NCBI GenBank assembly: GCA_003661265.1
Contig: QMVU01000005.1
Coordinates: 1 to 14,344, forward strand
DNA length: 14,344 nt
From: Thermoproteota archaeon
Lineage (GTDB): Archaea; Korarchaeota; Korarchaeia; Korarchaeales; Korarchaeaceae
Direction: 5' to 3'
Shown here: piece by piece, positions 5,743 through 14,344 of the stretch
How the letters are laid out: each line of letters begins with the position of its first letter
Numbering within the stretch: position 1 is the stretch's first letter
The notes under the pieces: model-generated
Told to the model about the DNA's origin: nothing
The model's database searches: none
What the model saw: only the letters and a program-made list of their open reading frames with translations
Translations under genes and position numbers: made by a program

Positions 5743-6726
5743 TCACCTCGCAGGGAATAACCTGATTGGCTTATCCAGCCTAGACAACAAAACTATTCCG
5801 CTTTCGGGGGCCTCTGAAAGTATTTTATATCCCGTTTCCTCGGCTAATCTCTTAGCAAACTCCTTGATCTCGGAGTGAGATGGGCTTGCATCTCTAGGAA
5901 GTCTCCTACGGGAGTACCCTACGTATGTGTAGGATTTTGGCTCCACATATGTTGGATTGTATTTGTTAACAAGCTTTGCATATCCCTCTGGATTAGACAT
6001 GTTGAGTCCCCTCACAAGTGTTATCCTCATTACAGTTGGACATGAAAAAGATTGCAGCAATTCGAGGGATTTCAAAAGTCTCTGCCATGCATCGGGCCAT
6101 AAAGGCCTTGCAACTCTCTTATACAGTTTTTCCTCCCAAGCTGGGACTGTTATGTAGAGTTGACTTGGTTCCGTTGATAGGTTCTCCAATCTCTCCGGCA
6201 GAGTACCGTTCGTGACTATGAATGTGGTCATTCCCCTCTTCTTATAAGCCGAAACAAGCTCTCCTAGAAAAGGATATAGAGTTGGCTCTCCTGTTAGTGA
6301 GATGGCTGCATGAGCTGGGATCTCCGCTTCATAAAGCCACTCCCTATTGAACACCTTTACCCCTTTGTACCCCTGTACGAGCATCCTGTGAACTCTTATG
6401 CTCTCTTTAGCTATCTCCTCTGGATCATCCCATAATTCGTCAGGATCAGGAACCTCCTTCCAGCGGAACCTTGGAGGAACGTCGCTCGCATTTAATCTCC
6501 AGCAGTATATGCATTGAGAGTTGCAAAAAGAAGCTGTTGGAGTCATTTGAAGGCATCTCCAAGTAGGTATTCCATAGAATTTGTGTTTGTAACATGTACG
6601 GCCCTTCATTAAGGCCTCTCTAAACCAATGACATGGCTTAACAGCCGAGTGGTTTAGTATTATTTTATACCCTTGTCTCTCTAGCATTCGTCTAGCATAC
6701 TCTTGTATCGTAACTCTTTTTGGCAA
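5743..6726 (-). CDS. taw1: tRNA 4-demethylwyosine synthase (archaeal TYW1)
   Basis: This radical-SAM enzyme builds the tricyclic imidazopurine of wyosine on m1G37 of tRNA-Phe, using pyruvate and SAM. Counting from the TTG at 6726 (327 aa), cysteines 32, 45 and 58 have the 13-13 spacing of the second Fe-S cluster in Methanocaldococcus TYW1. CNSQCIYCWR (C68, C72, C75) is the radical-SAM CxxxCxxC motif, and SLTGEPTLYPFL follows. An ATG at 6849 would add 41 residues not found in relatives and would overlap the divergent gene by 53 bases. The TTG has AGGA five bases upstream and an AT box about 35 bases upstream, so I prefer it; the ATG at the position of Met55 in the long frame is another option. 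It is first in the operon with pyrH. Confidence 0.92.
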   Translation of the reverse strand: MPKRVTIQEYARRMLERQGYKIILNHSAVKPCHWFREALMKGRTCYKHKFYGIPTWRCLQMTPTASFCNSQCIYCWRLNASDVPPRFRWKEVPDPDELWDDPEEIAKESIRVHRMLVQGYKGVKVFNREWLYEAEIPAHAAISLTGEPTLYPFLGELVSAYKKRGMTTFIVTNGTLPERLENLSTEPSQLYITVPAWEEKLYKRVARPLWPDAWQRLLKSLELLQSFSCPTVMRITLVRGLNMSNPEGYAKLVNKYNPTYVEPKSYTYVGYSRRRLPRDASPSHSEIKEFAKRLAEETGYKILSEAPESGIVLLSRLDKPIRLFPAR

Positions 6727-6756
6727 ACCTATCCTAGGAGAGATAAGCTGTTTCTG

Positions 6757-6775
6757 ATTTAAAAGACTTAATAAG
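6757..6775. promoter_or_regulatory. Divergent promoter region, taw1 and translin-family gene
   Basis: Two adjacent AT boxes are seen: TTTAAAA (6758-6764) and CTTAATAAG (6767-6775). The second is centred 26 bases before the translin-family ATG (leaderless). The first, read on the minus strand, gives a taw1 start near 6735 and a nine-base leader holding AGGA. Inferred from spacing. Confidence 0.5.
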
Positions 6776-6796
6776 CCTTGATTGCTCAGATGAAGG

Positions 6797-7417
6797 ATGT
6801 GTTCTCCAGAAGAGAGAAGAGATGTTGTTAATGAAATCTTCAAACGCATAAAAAGTAGGTTAGACGAGTTAGATGAAATTAGACATCAATTACTTACTGA
6901 TCAAAGGGATTTACTGTCCTCTTGTAGGAAAGCAATGAACTTCATCCACTCAGGCAATGTTTCAGAGGCTAAAAAAATAGTAACTGAAGTTAGAAAGAGG
7001 ATTCAGAAAGTGAAGCATATTAGCTCAGATGCTGAGATGTTTTGTCTGATTAGCAATATTTTGAGGCCTGTAAAGCAGGAACTAGTTGAGGTTGAAGTTT
7101 TGCTTTCGATAATTGAGTGTCAAAAAGTACCTAGCCCAGAGGATTTAGGTGTTGATGTAATTAGTTATACTCTGGGCCTCGCGGATGTGATAGGTGAATT
7201 AAGAAGAGAGGTACTAATTGCCATCGGCAAAAACAACTTAAGTTTGGCACGGCAGTTCTTAGAATGGATGAGATTGCTGTTTGAAGAAATTTCACAATTA
7301 ACGTATCCTGATTCCTTAATTCCAATAAGACATAAAACAGATGTAGGAAGATCCTTGCTTGATAGAACTCTTTCAGAATTCTTATTTTATAAGAGAAGTA
7401 GTTTTCTATTAAAATAA
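6797..7417 (+). CDS. Translin-family protein
   Basis: The 206-aa all-helical product matches archaeal translin-like proteins. A long N-terminal helical pair (about 5-75) is followed by the diagnostic block from about residue 119: LGVDVISYTLGLADVIGELRRE, then an AIGKNNLSLARQFLEWM helix, and RHKTDVGRSLLDRT near 177-190. Eukaryotic translin and its partner TRAX bind single-stranded nucleic acid, and TRAX-type members have Mg-dependent RNase activity. I cannot place the acidic catalytic residues with certainty, so RNase activity is open. The ATG at 6797 lies 26 bases from an AT box without a ribosome site, fitting a leaderless message. Only 25 bases separate it from rbkR, so the two form an operon. 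Confidence 0.8.
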   Translation: MCSPEERRDVVNEIFKRIKSRLDELDEIRHQLLTDQRDLLSSCRKAMNFIHSGNVSEAKKIVTEVRKRIQKVKHISSDAEMFCLISNILRPVKQELVEVEVLLSIIECQKVPSPEDLGVDVISYTLGLADVIGELRREVLIAIGKNNLSLARQFLEWMRLLFEEISQLTYPDSLIPIRHKTDVGRSLLDRTLSEFLFYKRSSFLLK

Positions 7418-7442: not shown

Positions 7443-8165
7443 ATGACCAGCAGGGCTGCTGGGGCAAAAGCAAGAACTCAATACCTCTTAATTGAGCTTG
7501 TCAGGCTTTCAGGTCATGTGCGTCCAGTAAGTAGCAGGGTTCTAGCTAGAAAATTAGGTATATCAAAGGCTACAATGAGTAGATGGCTTCGCGAGGCTTA
7601 TGATTCCAATTATATCTCAATAGAAAGAGGGAAAAGGGGGGAATACTTAGTTAAGCTAAATGACAAGGGATACAGTGCTCTTCGCGGAATCTATAGCATT
7701 CTGGATTCCGTGTTCTCTGTTCGCTCGCTCGAAGGGAGGCTCATTATTAAGGGACGGGTGTTTACCGGAATGGGGGAAGGGGCATACTATGTGACCCGTA
7801 AAGGATATCTAAAGGCTTTTGAGGAGCTTCTGGGAAAACCTCCTTTCCCAGGAACATTGAACTTGAGGATAAGTTCCTCTCAAGATGTGGAAACTGTCCG
7901 TAAGTGGAGGATTTCCTGCCCTACAGCTGTCTATATACCTGGATTTAAGGAAGAAGGCAGGACTTTCGGTTTTGTAATCGCCCTTCCTGTTATAATCAAC
8001 AACGTTTCGTTTTGTTACGCTATATACGCTGAGAGACGTCATTACGGAGACGAAATTTTGGAAATAATAAGCGATAGAAATCTTAGAGAGGAACTGGGCC
8101 TAAGGGATGGAGATGTATTAACTGTACAACTATTACTCGAAAGACCAGTCTCTAAAGGGAAATAG
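7443..8165 (+). CDS. rbkR: CTP-dependent riboflavin kinase with N-terminal winged helix (RbkR type)
   Basis: The 240-aa product fuses a winged helix-turn-helix (about 12-78) to an archaeal riboflavin kinase domain (about 98-234). Kinase motifs include GMGEGAYYV (109-117) and PFPGTLNL (134-141), the CTP- and flavin-binding loops of the MJ0056 family. The enzyme makes FMN from riboflavin with CTP rather than ATP. In this fused form it is known in several archaea as RbkR, which also represses riboflavin synthesis genes; autoregulation is plausible, but I cannot identify an operator. GGTGA upstream supports the ATG at 7443. It is co-transcribed with the translin-family gene. Its stop codon directly abuts the convergent tRNA-Val. 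Confidence 0.93.
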   Translation: MTSRAAGAKARTQYLLIELVRLSGHVRPVSSRVLARKLGISKATMSRWLREAYDSNYISIERGKRGEYLVKLNDKGYSALRGIYSILDSVFSVRSLEGRLIIKGRVFTGMGEGAYYVTRKGYLKAFEELLGKPPFPGTLNLRISSSQDVETVRKWRISCPTAVYIPGFKEEGRTFGFVIALPVIINNVSFCYAIYAERRHYGDEILEIISDRNLREELGLRDGDVLTVQLLLERPVSKGK

Positions 8166-8238
8166 TGGGCCGGGAGGGAATCGAACCCTCGACCTCCGCC
8201 TCGTCAAGGCGGCGTCATAGCCACTAGACTACCGGCCC
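8166..8238 (-). tRNA. tRNA-Val (anticodon GAC)
   Basis: Read on the minus strand it is a 73-base cloverleaf. Acceptor GGGCCGG (8238-8232) pairs with CCGGCCC (8173-8167), with discriminator A at 8166. The anticodon stem CCGCC/GGCGG encloses TTGACGA with anticodon GAC, and the T arm is identical to the tRNA-Val(UAC) at 15-87. It differs from that tRNA only at positions 9, 32 and 34. No intron and no encoded CCA. It reads GUC/GUU. Its 3' end lies immediately next to the rbkR stop codon. Confidence 0.97.
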
Positions 8239-8263
8239 CTTTGTGGATATTCTAGTGAGCAAC

Positions 8264-8275
8264 TTAATAATATTA
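8264..8275 (-). promoter_or_regulatory. AT box for tRNA-Val(GAC)
   Basis: TTAATAATATTA lies with its centre about 28-30 bases before the 5' end of the tRNA on the minus strand, a suitable distance for an archaeal TATA box. Confidence 0.5.
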
Positions 8276-8339
8276 CTGAGTGGGATAAAGGCTTACTTTA
8301 AATCTATTTACCTCAGCGAACGGTGCAGCATCGTGATTT

Positions 8340-8417
8340 GGGCGGAAGCTCACTACTCAAGATCTCGCTCATCGAACGGACATCTCGCCGGGCTCGAATT
8401 GATCCTTGCTTCCGCCC
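8340..8417 (-). ncRNA. Candidate structured RNA (long-stem hairpin), unrecognised
   Basis: A perfect 10-bp inverted repeat, GGGCGGAAGC (8340-8349) and GCTTCCGCCC (8408-8417), closes 58 bases. Inside, 8359-8364 pairs with 8401-8407 (one bulged base), leaving a one-sided nine-base bulge at 8350-8358. Further in, 8372-8375 pairs with 8394-8397, and CGG 8377-8379 with CCG 8388-8390, around an eight-base loop. The segment is visibly more GC-rich than its AT-rich flanks, typical of structured RNA in thermophiles. The minus strand is favoured because GATTTATAGG (8450-8441) sits about 27 bases before the predicted 5' end; a weaker AT box (8296-8304) exists for the plus strand. It lacks tRNA T-loop, SRP or RNase P signatures that I can recognise. 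The 3' end is unknown, and an H/ACA-like guide cannot be shown. Confidence 0.4.
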
Positions 8418-8440
8418 TTAAGGAGAGAAGGGTAAGGCTT

Positions 8441-8450
8441 CCTATAAATC
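8441..8450 (-). promoter_or_regulatory. TATA box proposed for the candidate RNA
   Basis: Read on the minus strand this is GATTTATAGG, centred about 27 bases before position 8419, where the GC-rich stem begins. It does not serve any neighbouring protein gene: the next minus-strand gene upstream ends at 8484 and has its own promoter. Confidence 0.4.
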
Positions 8451-8483
8451 TTAGCAGAAACTTAGCCTTGTTGTAGTTCCTGA

Positions 8484-9638
8484 TCACTCGGCCAGCTCCA
8501 CAAGCTTAAGCGCGCTTTCAGTAAAGTAATATCTGACACCTCTTTTAATGATAAGATTGCGGGCCTTTAATTCGTCTAAAATAGATTTTACGTTCACTAG
8601 GGATAAACCCGTAGCCTCCGCTGCTTCTATGAGGGAGAAAAACTTTCTCTCCCCGATCCTAGCTTTAATCTTTCTCAGATATTTCCCATATTTGGAAGGC
8701 GTTTTCTTTTCCTTGATGTCCTTTTTTATCCCACTTAGCACTTGAAGTGCCCTTTTGACCTCCCTATCGTCCAAGGTTGAAGCTGTTAGGAGGATGTTCC
8801 TGAAAATTTGCATTAACTTCCTTGGATTTCCTCTAGATAACCTATTTAACTCTGCAATCGTCTCTTTGCTTATAAAATAATTCTCAAAAACACTTCCCTC
8901 TCTCTTTAACTCGAAAACTTGTTTTAATCGCCGATCTATTATCTCCTTAGCCTCCTCATCAGTAATTTTCTTTACCTTAATTACGGTAGGAGGAGGATTC
9001 AGATTCGATAGTAGATGCTTTATAGATTCATACGCCTTCGGTATACAGGCTATTACTATCATCTTGCCGTCAGAGAGAGCATTATATAGGGAAAGGAGGT
9101 ATTTTGTAAAAGCTCTAACGTCTTCCTCCGAGTTATTCAGAATTACGTTTTCTATTTCGTCCATCAAAAGGATTGCTTCCCCTCTATTGTTCATCATAGA
9201 AGCAGCTTTTTCGGCCGCTATTTTAGGATCAGAGGAGTATCCGTCCTCCTTCTTTCCTGCAAGCGACAGAATGACCTTTTTCAAATGTCTGGCTGGAATT
9301 ATCTCAAGCGAATGAAGAGCTGCTTCTATCCCCCTGATAACATCACGAGAATCCTGAGAATCTACCTTTATGTAGATGCAGGGAACTTCTTCCAAGGTTT
9401 CATAGAGAAGTCTTAACCTGTGGGTCTTACCGCTTCCAAATTCACCTATTAGGAAGATAAGCTTCTTCTTTTTGCTCTTCAGAAAGCTCTCGACAGCATT
9501 CCAGAAACTTCTATCTGTCTCAGTCCATACGTGGAAATTACCGACAGATTTTAGACTTTCACTGGATAGATGAATGAATGGATTGTACTTTAATAGCCAT
9601 CTTAGGTAGGCACTTTCATCTATCTTAGAGCTAGTCAT
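8484..9638 (-). CDS. AAA+ ATPase with C-terminal winged helix (Orc1/Cdc6-ExeA superfamily)
   Basis: The 384-aa product has a single P-loop ATPase domain: Walker A GEFGSGKT (65-72), Walker B LLMDE (157-161) and a sensor-2-like RGNPRKLMQIFRNIL near 275-290. The last ~60 residues (FFSLIEAAEATGLSLVNVKSILDEL and after) form a winged-helix DNA-binding domain. The YNPFIH opening resembles ExeA/TniB-like AAA proteins. The overall design (AAA plus wHTH) recalls Orc1/Cdc6, but the origin-binding signature is weak, so I do not call it an initiator. No signal peptide or membrane helix. The ATG at 9638 lies about 30 bases from an AT box (9663-9674). It diverges from the secreted-protein operon at 9758, with which it may share regulation. 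Confidence 0.75.
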   Translation of the reverse strand: MTSSKIDESAYLRWLLKYNPFIHLSSESLKSVGNFHVWTETDRSFWNAVESFLKSKKKKLIFLIGEFGSGKTHRLRLLYETLEEVPCIYIKVDSQDSRDVIRGIEAALHSLEIIPARHLKKVILSLAGKKEDGYSSDPKIAAEKAASMMNNRGEAILLMDEIENVILNNSEEDVRAFTKYLLSLYNALSDGKMIVIACIPKAYESIKHLLSNLNPPPTVIKVKKITDEEAKEIIDRRLKQVFELKREGSVFENYFISKETIAELNRLSRGNPRKLMQIFRNILLTASTLDDREVKRALQVLSGIKKDIKEKKTPSKYGKYLRKIKARIGERKFFSLIEAAEATGLSLVNVKSILDELKARNLIIKRGVRYYFTESALKLVELAE

Positions 9639-12376: not shown

Positions 12377-13591
12377 TTAACTAATTACCTCTTTTAGCTT
12401 TTCTTTAGGAATCCCTATTTCATGTGATATATGTTCCAAGAGATGTCCCCCTCTCTTTATATCCTCTCTAATCATCGGAAAGATCTCCCCGATCACCTTT
12501 GAAGAGGAGATATGGAGTTTTTTAGCGAGCATAAGAGCCACTTCTTTCTCCTCTTTCCTGATTTCTTTTGTCGCAGATCTCCTTTTAATAATGCCTGGAA
12601 ATCTAAACTTAATCCAACCACCTGTTGGCTTCTTTAATTTTGAGGAACATACTCCAAACGTCATCATATCAATGGAATATGCAAGAAGACTCATGTCTCC
12701 TGTTTCCGAGGCCCTCTTGAAGAACAAATCTGCCATTGATAGAGCATTATAAGCTGCACATAGAGCCTTAGGATCTTTATAGAACAGCGGTAAGTTCTCT
12801 TCAACCCACCTAAAAACAAAACGGGGTTCCAAATGGAGATTTCGCATGACAATCTTCGAATATCCGCACTTTTCAGAGATCAAAACCGCTTTAAGAAGAT
12901 CAAATATTCCTTTTTCAACGTCTCTTTGTCCTACTCTTTTCCCTAGCTCTGAGACAAGCTCTAATGAGCCTTGACAGATTGTTTGGAGATCATTAATGGC
13001 CGCCCTCAAATCTCCAGAGGAATTCACTGCTATCTCCTTTAAAACATCTAAGCTTATGTTTACGCCCTCCTTTCTAGCTATTGAGGCAAGAACAGACCTT
13101 ATCGTTGTCCACCTCAGTCTGTTAAATTTCACTGGTTCAGAGATCCTGCGAATTTCGGGAGGCACGTTCTTATACATGTCGTTAACCGTGATAACTATTG
13201 GACAACTTGCAACTAGTTTTTCCGCTAATCTAGCTATTTCCCTAGCCTCAGATGAAGAAAGGGCATCAGCCTCATCTATTATTATGAGTCTTCTCCTACC
13301 AAAGAGAGAAGGAGCCCCTAGATTACTTATTACGGACTTAAGCTTCTCTCCTGCAGCTGCTTCGCTGGCGTTTATCTCAATAGGATCAAAATCCAGCTCC
13401 TTTGCTATTGCATGAGCTGCTGAGGTTTTGCCAGTTCCTGGAGGACCATAAAGAAGGAGAGCTTTCTTATTAGTCCCGTCTCTGACCTTTCTAATCCATT
13501 CTCTGATCTTCTCTATAGCAGAAGCTTGGCCGATTATCTCGTCCAGCTTCCTTGGACGGTATTTTTCTGTCCAAAGTAGCAAATTATTCAC
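12377..13591 (-). CDS. rfcL: Replication factor C large subunit
   Basis: The 404-aa clamp-loader subunit opens and loads PCNA on primed DNA together with RfcS. LWTEKYRPRKLDEIIGQ (6-22) is the RFC box, GPPGTGKT (49-56) is Walker A, IIIDEADAL (103-111) is Walker B, TVND holds the sensor-1 Asn137, and SSGDLRAAINDLQ holds sensor 2. As expected for RFC-L it lacks the SRC arginine-finger motif. Many archaeal RFC-L proteins end in a PCNA-binding PIP box (QxxLxxFF); this one ends in KEKLKEVIS and has none. The GTG start overlaps the rfcS stop (GTGA type), so the two subunits are translationally coupled. Confidence 0.96.
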   Translation of the reverse strand: MNNLLLWTEKYRPRKLDEIIGQASAIEKIREWIRKVRDGTNKKALLLYGPPGTGKTSAAHAIAKELDFDPIEINASEAAAGEKLKSVISNLGAPSLFGRRRLIIIDEADALSSSEAREIARLAEKLVASCPIVITVNDMYKNVPPEIRRISEPVKFNRLRWTTIRSVLASIARKEGVNISLDVLKEIAVNSSGDLRAAINDLQTICQGSLELVSELGKRVGQRDVEKGIFDLLKAVLISEKCGYSKIVMRNLHLEPRFVFRWVEENLPLFYKDPKALCAAYNALSMADLFFKRASETGDMSLLAYSIDMMTFGVCSSKLKKPTGGWIKFRFPGIIKRRSATKEIRKEEKEVALMLAKKLHISSSKVIGEIFPMIREDIKRGGHLLEHISHEIGIPKEKLKEVIS

Positions 13592-14344
13592 CTCATGGAG
13601 CCTAGTTCGACTATCTGCGCAAGCAGGAACCCGAGTTGGACATCCGGGTGAAGGCCAAGCGCTAGCCTGAAGTCCACCTCCCCTATGAATGAAATAAGCT
13701 TCGCTTTTTCAGAGTCTGAAAATTCCTCGGAAGCGGATATTTCACGGTAAATCTGTCTAATTAAGTCTTCACCTGATATTCCATCCTCTAACATTAATTC
13801 CCTCAGCATATCCCTTGCTTCTAAGAAATTTCCCTCGTAAGCGGCTTTTATCATCTTTTGTACCTTTTCTGGTCTAGCTAGACCAGCCATTTTGAAGACA
13901 AGATCTTTGTTTATCTCTTTTCCAACGACCGCAACCGTCTGCAGAGTGTTGATGGCCCTTCTTAGATCTCCCTCACTAACGTATACGATGGCATCCAATC
14001 CCTCGTCCGTGATCGCAACCCCCTCCTTATCAGCTATGTATCTTAGTCTGTCCCTAATGGCTGATTCTGGAAGAGGAAGAAATCTGAATACAGCAGTTCT
14101 CGATTGTATAGGCTCTATTATTCTTGAAGAATAATTGCAAGCTAATATGAATCTGGTACCTGAGGAATACATCTCCATTATTCTCCTCAAGGCATGCTGT
14201 GCTTGTGGAGTTAAATGATCCGCCTCATCAAGATGAATTATCTTGAACGGGGCTCCTCCAGCTGGAGCTGTTTTTGCAAAGTCCTTTATCTTTGTTCTGA
14301 TGATTTCGATGCCCCTTTCATCCGATGCATTAAGCTCAAGGTAG
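13588..14344 (-). CDS. rfcS: Replication factor C small subunit (5' end outside window)
   Basis: The frame is open to the window edge; the visible 251 residues are the C-terminal three quarters of a protein usually about 320 aa. They begin at YLELNASDERGI, after the Walker A. IIHLDEADHL is Walker B, ACNYSSRIIEPIQSR combines sensor 1 with the SRC motif that supplies the arginine finger to the neighbouring subunit, and SEGDLRRAINTLQ is sensor 2. A collar domain follows. RfcS forms the ring of small subunits of the clamp loader. It is upstream of and coupled to rfcL. The TTG at 14190 lies inside the conserved ALRRIMEM segment and is not a start. Confidence 0.97.
   Translation of the reverse strand, partial: YLELNASDERGIEIIRTKIKDFAKTAPAGGAPFKIIHLDEADHLTPQAQHALRRIMEMYSSGTRFILACNYSSRIIEPIQSRTAVFRFLPLPESAIRDRLRYIADKEGVAITDEGLDAIVYVSEGDLRRAINTLQTVAVVGKEINKDLVFKMAGLARPEKVQKMIKAAYEGNFLEARDMLRELMLEDGISGEDLIRQIYREISASEEFSDSEKAKLISFIGEVDFRLALGLHPDVQLGFLLAQIVELGSMR

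Follow-up and report, generated by a model that had tools for sequence, protein, structure and literature searches.

The minus strand at positions 8417–8340 of the window, the 14,344-nt stretch of DNA analysed here in full, very probably encodes a Korarchaeia box C/D guide sRNA that directs methylation of C34 in tRNA-Leu(CAA). This identification was based on conservation, box anatomy, compensatory base changes and target complementarity, all of which were read from sequence, while transcription, protein binding and methylation are predicted properties of this sRNA system. A first-pass annotation had proposed that the minus strand carries a gene for a non-coding RNA other than a tRNA, SRP RNA or RNase P RNA, and the conserved C/D sRNA anatomy supports that proposal. 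The same annotation suggested a new kind of RNA, which was not upheld, as the conserved boxes C, D', C' and D together with an antisense guide place the sequence among the box C/D methylation-guide sRNAs. Both the RNA and its predicted target thus belong to known kinds, and the window copy is a somewhat drifted new member of the former.

In the proposed mechanism, boxes C and D, joined by the 10-bp stem, would fold into a kink-turn and boxes C' and D' into a kink-loop, both of which would serve L7Ae, Nop5 and fibrillarin. Pairing of A31–C40 of tRNA-Leu(CAA) with the guide that lies 5' of box D would then allow fibrillarin to methylate the 2'-OH of the nucleotide facing the fifth guide base, counted from box D, which corresponds to the wobble C34, and perhaps also U34 of tRNA-Leu(UAA), where the pair would be G.U. 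Fibrillarin was found in 23 of the 24 family genomes (G000 at 8.2e-93).

Stem, boxes and predicted kink-turn

The perfect 10-bp inverted repeat GGGCGGAAGC (8340–8349) / GCTTCCGCCC (8408–8417) and the contrast between a GC-rich segment and its AT-rich flanks, both described in the first-pass annotation, were confirmed by reading the sequence (GC of 0.59 in 8340–8417 in comparison to 0.36 in 8240–8339 and 0.39 in 8418–8483). The window contained seven perfect 10-mer inverted repeats with loops of 3–80 nt, representing five distinct places of which one had overlapping registers, against an average of 1.85 over 20 block-shuffled sequences, so that a single repeat of this kind was unsurprising in a sequence this rich in them. 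Folding of a 101-nt stretch gave z values of -0.89 on the plus strand (35 of 200 shuffles equally good) and -1.51 on the minus strand (19 of 200). The 10-bp stem is neither rare as a sequence nor of unusual stability, and it is conservation that lifts the segment above chance.

The one-sided nine-base bulge described earlier was not reproduced, and the nested inner helices that had been taken as the fold differ in the same-genus copy, indicating that they are unconserved and no stable feature. The terminal stem was retained in both species of the window's genus despite differing letters; by eye, the same-genus copy can pair GGGCG-A-GGGC with GCCC-CGCCC in this stem, and its minimum-energy fold retained just five outer stem pairs. 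A new class of structured RNA, with the nested hairpin as its functional fold, would agree with the GC-rich 10-bp stem and with the outcome of the covariance search against Rfam that had been recommended, in which 8340–8450 gave no match up to E = 5 (Rfam matches in the window were three tRNAs, none at the hairpin). This reading is nevertheless highly improbable, given that the inner helices change within one genus, the fold energy is ordinary and conservation falls on C/D boxes and a guide. An H/ACA guide RNA, to which a long stem with an internal loop might point, is barely credible: no ACA directly follows the stem (AAA in the window and GAU in the sister copy), and C/D boxes are conserved instead.

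A plus-strand ORF at 8243–8476 (77 aa, GTG start), which overlaps the sRNA on the opposite strand, was also considered and is probably not a gene, as the same-genus locus has no ORF of at least 70 aa spanning this region. A repeat element was set aside because the sRNA sequence had a single match in its own genome.

Table 1. Features of the predicted sRNA and its immediate neighbours in the window.
Feature	Position	Strand	Basis or remark
Predicted box C/D guide sRNA	8340..8417	-	78 nt stem end to stem end, 5' end 8417
Terminal stem (kink-turn C-stem), 5' strand, 10 bp, GGGCGGAAGC	8408..8417	-	sequence, family covariation
Terminal stem, 3' strand, GCTTCCGCCC	8340..8349	-	sequence, family covariation
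Box C, AGGATCA	8400..8406	-	23-sRNA box alignment; departs from RUGAUGA at positions 2 and 6
Putative 3-nt kink-turn bulge	8407-8405	-	beside box C
D' guide ATTCGAGCCCG	8389..8399	-	antisense to tRNA T-arm CGGGUUCGAAU
Box D', GCGA	8385..8388	-	box alignment; 2 of 4 letters off CUGA
D'-C' spacer, 12 nt	8373..8384	-	box alignment
Box C', ATGAGCG	8366..8372	-	box alignment; 3 of 7 letters off RUGAUGA
D guide AGATCTTGAGTA	8354..8365	-	antisense to anticodon loop of tRNA-Leu(CAA); box D+5 = C34
Box D, GTGA	8350..8353	-	1 of 4 letters off CUGA; G1 pairs with C6 of box C
TATA-like box GATTTATAGG, predicted sRNA promoter	8441..8450	-	sequence
AAA ATPase gene (AAA_22), upstream neighbour	8484..9638	-	match in 23 of 24 family genomes
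tRNA-Val(GAC), downstream neighbour	8165..8238	-	conserved neighbour

The window copy was in register with its relatives throughout, in the order stem, box C, D' guide, box D', spacer, box C', D guide, box D and stem. A kink-turn needs a spacing of three nucleotides between the end of the stem and the GA in box C. The terminal stem of the window copy stops 3 nt ahead of this GA, and the GA of boxes C and D is retained in both; G1 of box D' is in addition able to pair with C6 of box C'. All elements that the kink-turn requires (C-stem, 3-nt bulge, tandem G.A and C6-D1 pair) are predicted to be present in the window copy, class membership being judged here by kink-turn formation and not by the literal box consensus. 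The kink-turn motif itself is described in the available text of PMC7994747.

A minus-strand TATA-like box at a fitting distance had been noted previously, and this agrees with the TTTATA core of GATTTATAGG, centred approximately 28 nt before the stem on that strand. From the start of TTTATA to box C the distance is 42 nt in the window and 41 nt in the same-genus copy, and TATA-like hexamers precede, as a raw count, 15 of the 22 copies examined from a total of 27.

Boxes were assigned in an alignment of 23 family sRNAs by a script using near-consensus patterns, and C, D', C' and D were present in this order at sRNA spacing in every copy. The same order was judged by eye to be present in all four copies from other families (L254–L257). 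A literal CUGA was seen as box D in 14 of the 23 family copies and as box D' in 16, and box C departed from RUGAUGA by one to three letters in all 23; box C' of L030, L042 and L043 has an alternative reading, UGAUGA, a few bases earlier. As an example, the 5' half of L026 consists of stem GGCGG, UGG, AUGAGGU (C), AAACGGCCCG (D' guide) and CUGA (D'), and its 3' half of UCU, AUGAAGA (C'), CGAUCUUGAGUA (D guide), CUGA (D), one C and stem CCGCC. The 23 sRNAs are 62–72 nt long with 8+7 nt of stem included and the window copy is 78 nt with its whole stem, the class expectation for archaeal box C/D sRNAs being about 50–70 nt.

Conservation and covariation in Korarchaeia

A DNA search of 60 other genomes returned one strong match, from the same genus (81% over 92 bases, E 2.9e-17), with the next best match at E 0.0026. 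The same-genus copy is likewise flanked by the AAA ATPase gene on one side and by tRNA-Val(GAC) on the other. Weak matches elsewhere lay downstream of the same ATPase gene, and the family loci were therefore traced via this gene. The D-guide sequence GATCTTGAGT, used as the search string, was found at all 23 family loci, with a CTGA-like box after one intervening base, and also in all four copies from other families. Of the 21 loci from other genera, 17 include tRNA-Val, and according to coordinates the sRNA is between the ATPase gene and tRNA-Val in 16 of those 17 (L043 differs). The sRNA is on the strand of the ATPase gene in 22 of 23 loci, L030 being the exception with its RNA on the opposite strand.

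The position of the segment, 66 nt past the ATPase stop codon on the same strand and in a neighbourhood that persists, is what a transcription terminator or an mRNA 3' element of the ATPase gene might show. However, this explanation is very unlikely, because no T run follows the stem, a simple consensus scan of 8160–8500 gave no terminator-like site, the L030 RNA is opposite the ATPase strand and the RNAs of L254 and L255 are convergent with an ATPase relative. It would also leave the conservation of boxes and guide unexplained.

Several further genes were observed beside the tRNA-Val/sRNA locus of the window, namely a wyosine-type radical SAM gene (5743–6849, minus strand), a Translin-family gene (6797–7417, plus strand) and a CTP-dependent riboflavin kinase gene (7443–8165, plus strand). 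At 13588–14190 on the minus strand, only the C-terminal part of the replication factor C small subunit is present, and this gene probably exceeds the contig end at 14344. Outside the family, an ATPase relative of 24–29% identity was seen in convergent orientation beside the sRNA in L254 and L255, which are both of the other-family loci with ORFs listed.

Covariance model R1 matched 27 of the 29 phylum genomes at E 0.01 or better, 17 of the 27 having supplied its training sequences, and missed G022 and G024 (63% and 66% complete). R1 scored 55.2 bits in the window at 8344–8414 on the minus strand, where the next place scored 7.9 bits, and its matches in other families had E values of 2.0e-8 (G025), 5.3e-9 (G028), 5.7e-5 (G027) and 0.0012 (G026). 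The other-family copies L254–L257 have C/D anatomy plus the same D guide. As R1 contained the window's genus, a second model, R2, was built from 15 copies without that genus; R2 gave 35.1 bits for the window copy and 36.4 for its sister (next place in the window 10.5), and 24.5–46.7 bits for the four copies of other families. Weak second R1 matches in G017, G018 and G020 were without this guide. One place of low R1 score, L260 (G020:C2:225958-226020), reads like a further C/D sRNA whose CTGA is preceded by a different guide.

The C6-D1 kink-turn pair was G-C in 14, C-G in six, G.U in two and C.C in one of 23 copies. It was thus a standard pair in 22 of 23, a number attained in 0 of 10,000 shuffles, which is no true probability as the family copies are related. 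The swap to C-G occurred in two copies each of genera g1, g2 and g5, the window's genus included, and mismatches were seen in L033 (C.C at C6-D1) and L036 (A.C at C'6-D'1). The covariation check suggested by the first-pass annotation was positive: in 17 aligned copies, 83.7% of stem and kink-turn cells were standard-paired in comparison to 67.1% in shuffles, 21 cells had changed on both sides in comparison to 6.6, and the covariation score was 0.425 in comparison to 0.162, with 0 of 500 shuffles as high for each. Doubly changed pairs were matched by 2 of 500 and further pair types by 10 of 500 shuffles of the same copies, and shifting the partner by 1–3 columns gave covariation scores of 0.165 or less. 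In the MAFFT alignment, box C' is displaced by one base in L036 and L040, so that the covariation analysis counted C'/D' as 100% paired across the copies although the box assignment gave A.C in L036.

In the window copy C6-D1 and C'6-D'1 are both C-G and C'5-D'2 is G-C, so that its departures from consensus partly compensate each other. This bears on an improbable alternative, in which the RNA is a C/D sRNA by descent that has become inactive in the window's genus through drifted boxes, as in a decaying gene. In favour of decay, this genus is the only one among the 23 family copies in which U has changed to G at position 2 of box C, and R1 gives its two copies the lowest scores of the family, 55.2 and 56.5 bits, the next copy reaching 61.4. 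Against decay, several of the box departures compensate each other (the three pairs named above), GATCTTGAGT is unchanged and fits the tRNA-Leu(CAA) of its own genome, and the drifted state is common to both species of the genus with the stem kept in different letters. An active guide sRNA is the reading we prefer.

Predicted tRNA targets of the two guides

Both guides were scored by the +5 rule against the tRNAs of eight genomes, for which the tRNA sets were incomplete (at least 17–42 distinct predictions per genome; 30 of 32 matches in one search became loci). In the window's own genome, the best tRNA match of the D guide was tRNA-Leu(CAA) with 10 Watson-Crick pairs, which 0 of 100 shuffled guides equalled. 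The box-D+5 position fell on wobble C34 in seven of the eight genomes, the seven in which tRNA-Leu(CAA) was recovered, with pairing strengths of 10–11 Watson-Crick pairs. C34 of tRNA-Leu(CAA) was the best site in six genomes (G000, G002, G005, G007, G025 and G027), and in G004 tRNA-Leu(UAG) tied with it. Shuffled guides equalled the D guide in 1 of 100 cases for G007 and for G004, and in none for G000, G002, G005, G025 and G027. No D-guide target stood out in G028 (76 of 100 shuffles equal), where tRNA-Leu(CAA) was not recovered. tRNA-Leu(UAA), with G.U at position 34, came second in four of five family genomes and third in G004. Two ARAGORN 'Leu-CAA' calls, in G004 and G028, resemble tRNA-Val by sequence.

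In G027, an intron of 12 nt predicted in the anticodon loop divides the tRNA-Leu(CAA) target, and the spliced tRNA scored 10.5 versus 7 for the unspliced form. Since the complete duplex can form only once the intron is gone, methylation would follow splicing in this genome.

Neither guide had an rRNA site as good as its tRNA sites in the eight of ten genomes with some rRNA, a comparison made on another score scale and on loci with flanks; the window's own genome gave no rRNA. By coordinate arithmetic, the top D' scores in G004 fall outside rRNA. An 8-pair D' match was observed near the 16S/23S rRNA of G011, and the 23S rRNA match of G007 (L116) spans 3548 bases versus a 2987-position model, which suggests an insertion or intron.

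In the window's own genome the D' guide matched the T-arm CGGGUUCGAAU of several tRNAs with 10 Watson-Crick pairs and one G.U pair, and 0 of 100 shuffles were equal. A T-arm-antisense D' motif was present in eight of 27 copies, from the window's genus, g5 and families f4 and f5, and was absent from g2, g3, g4 and f3. Pairing of the D' guide to the T-arm reached 10 pairs in G027 (0 of 100 shuffles equal) and 9 pairs in G028 (2 of 100). In G005 the T-arm scored 8.5 and the best site, a tRNA-Met precursor, 9 (10 of 100 equal). No D' target beyond shuffles was found in G002, G004, G005, G007 or G025, where 54, 47, 10, 51 and 78 of 100 shuffles, respectively, were equal. A D' guide reading position 32 of various tRNAs was considered and not borne out.

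The D' +5 site falls on U54 in the window and on G53 in G027 and G028, a register that does not fit C56. We know of no archaeal 2'-O-methylation at U54 or G53. Methylated-ribose U54 is named for Eukarya only in the source text available. Trm56 (PF01994) was matched in none of the 24 family genomes (G000–G023), of which 14 have a completeness of 90% or more and a contamination of 5% or less, and all four archaeal controls were positive. With no Trm56 found in the family, guide-made T-arm methylation would be expected there, and if Korarchaeia make Cm56, they may do so by means of a C/D guide. In Pyrobaculum aerophilum, Cm56 is produced with a C/D guide instead of Trm56, according to the available text of PMC7912444.

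These D' matches can be interpreted as one half of a two-armed tRNA guide, with the D arm on the wobble loop of tRNA-Leu(CAA) and the D' arm on the T-arm core GGGUUCRA common to many tRNAs, a tentative reading that we consider rather doubtful. The D' T-arm motif may be ancestral. Several tRNAs may have their T-arm targeted by the D' guide, or this guide may be no more than a relic. Alternatively, both arms might grip one tRNA.

Implications and comparison with known guide sRNAs

With the predicted C34 guide, Korarchaeia, a little-studied archaeal group, would gain a testable tRNA-guiding sRNA that is present in nearly all sampled genomes of the phylum. As its kink-turn boxes change by paired swaps, consensus-based finders could overlook a probably functional copy such as that of the window. 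With no Trm56 found in the family, guide RNAs may also carry more of the tRNA methylation. A search of the literature at hand found no paper treating a methylation-guide sRNA in Korarchaeum. Three Rfam families, RF00095 (snoPyro_CD), RF01138 (sR23) and RF01152 (sR1), gave weak matches of 20–27 bits at the sRNA locus in three of 13 relatives scanned (L024, L027 and L042), all under the 45-bit gathering score and none in the window.

Related systems are known from other archaea. The available text of PMC7994747 describes C/D sRNAs of Pyrococcus that address position 34 in the tRNAs Leu(CAA), Leu(UAA), Met and Trp, and Pyrobaculum tRNA-guiding sRNAs with one guide lacking a target. For P. furiosus, the predicted sites include C34 of tRNA-Leu(CAA), and Cm34 was seen in some tRNAs and not at other predicted sites, tRNA-Leu(CAA) not being shown in the portion of PMC7668247 at hand. 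Nanoarchaeum C/D sRNAs adjoin tRNAs, and one directly follows tRNA-Val in the part of PMC3491384 that was accessible.

As far as these partial sources extend, the Pyrococcus tRNA-Leu sRNAs are alike in box C/D architecture, in a guide for the first anticodon position and in C34 of tRNA-Leu(CAA) as the predicted target. In comparison to these sRNAs, taken by description and not by sequence, the copy in the window's genus is distinguished by drifted boxes, a terminal stem of 10 bp and a D' guide against the T-arm. The tRNA-Trp intron sRNA (Cm34/Um39) and the P. aerophilum Cm56 guide, again from source text available in part, are likewise C/D RNAs that employ fibrillarin, Nop5 and L7Ae and have a tRNA target. 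Unlike the former, the window sRNA is outside any tRNA intron, and unlike the latter, its predicted D' box+5 position is at U54 (G53 in G027 and G028) and not at C56.
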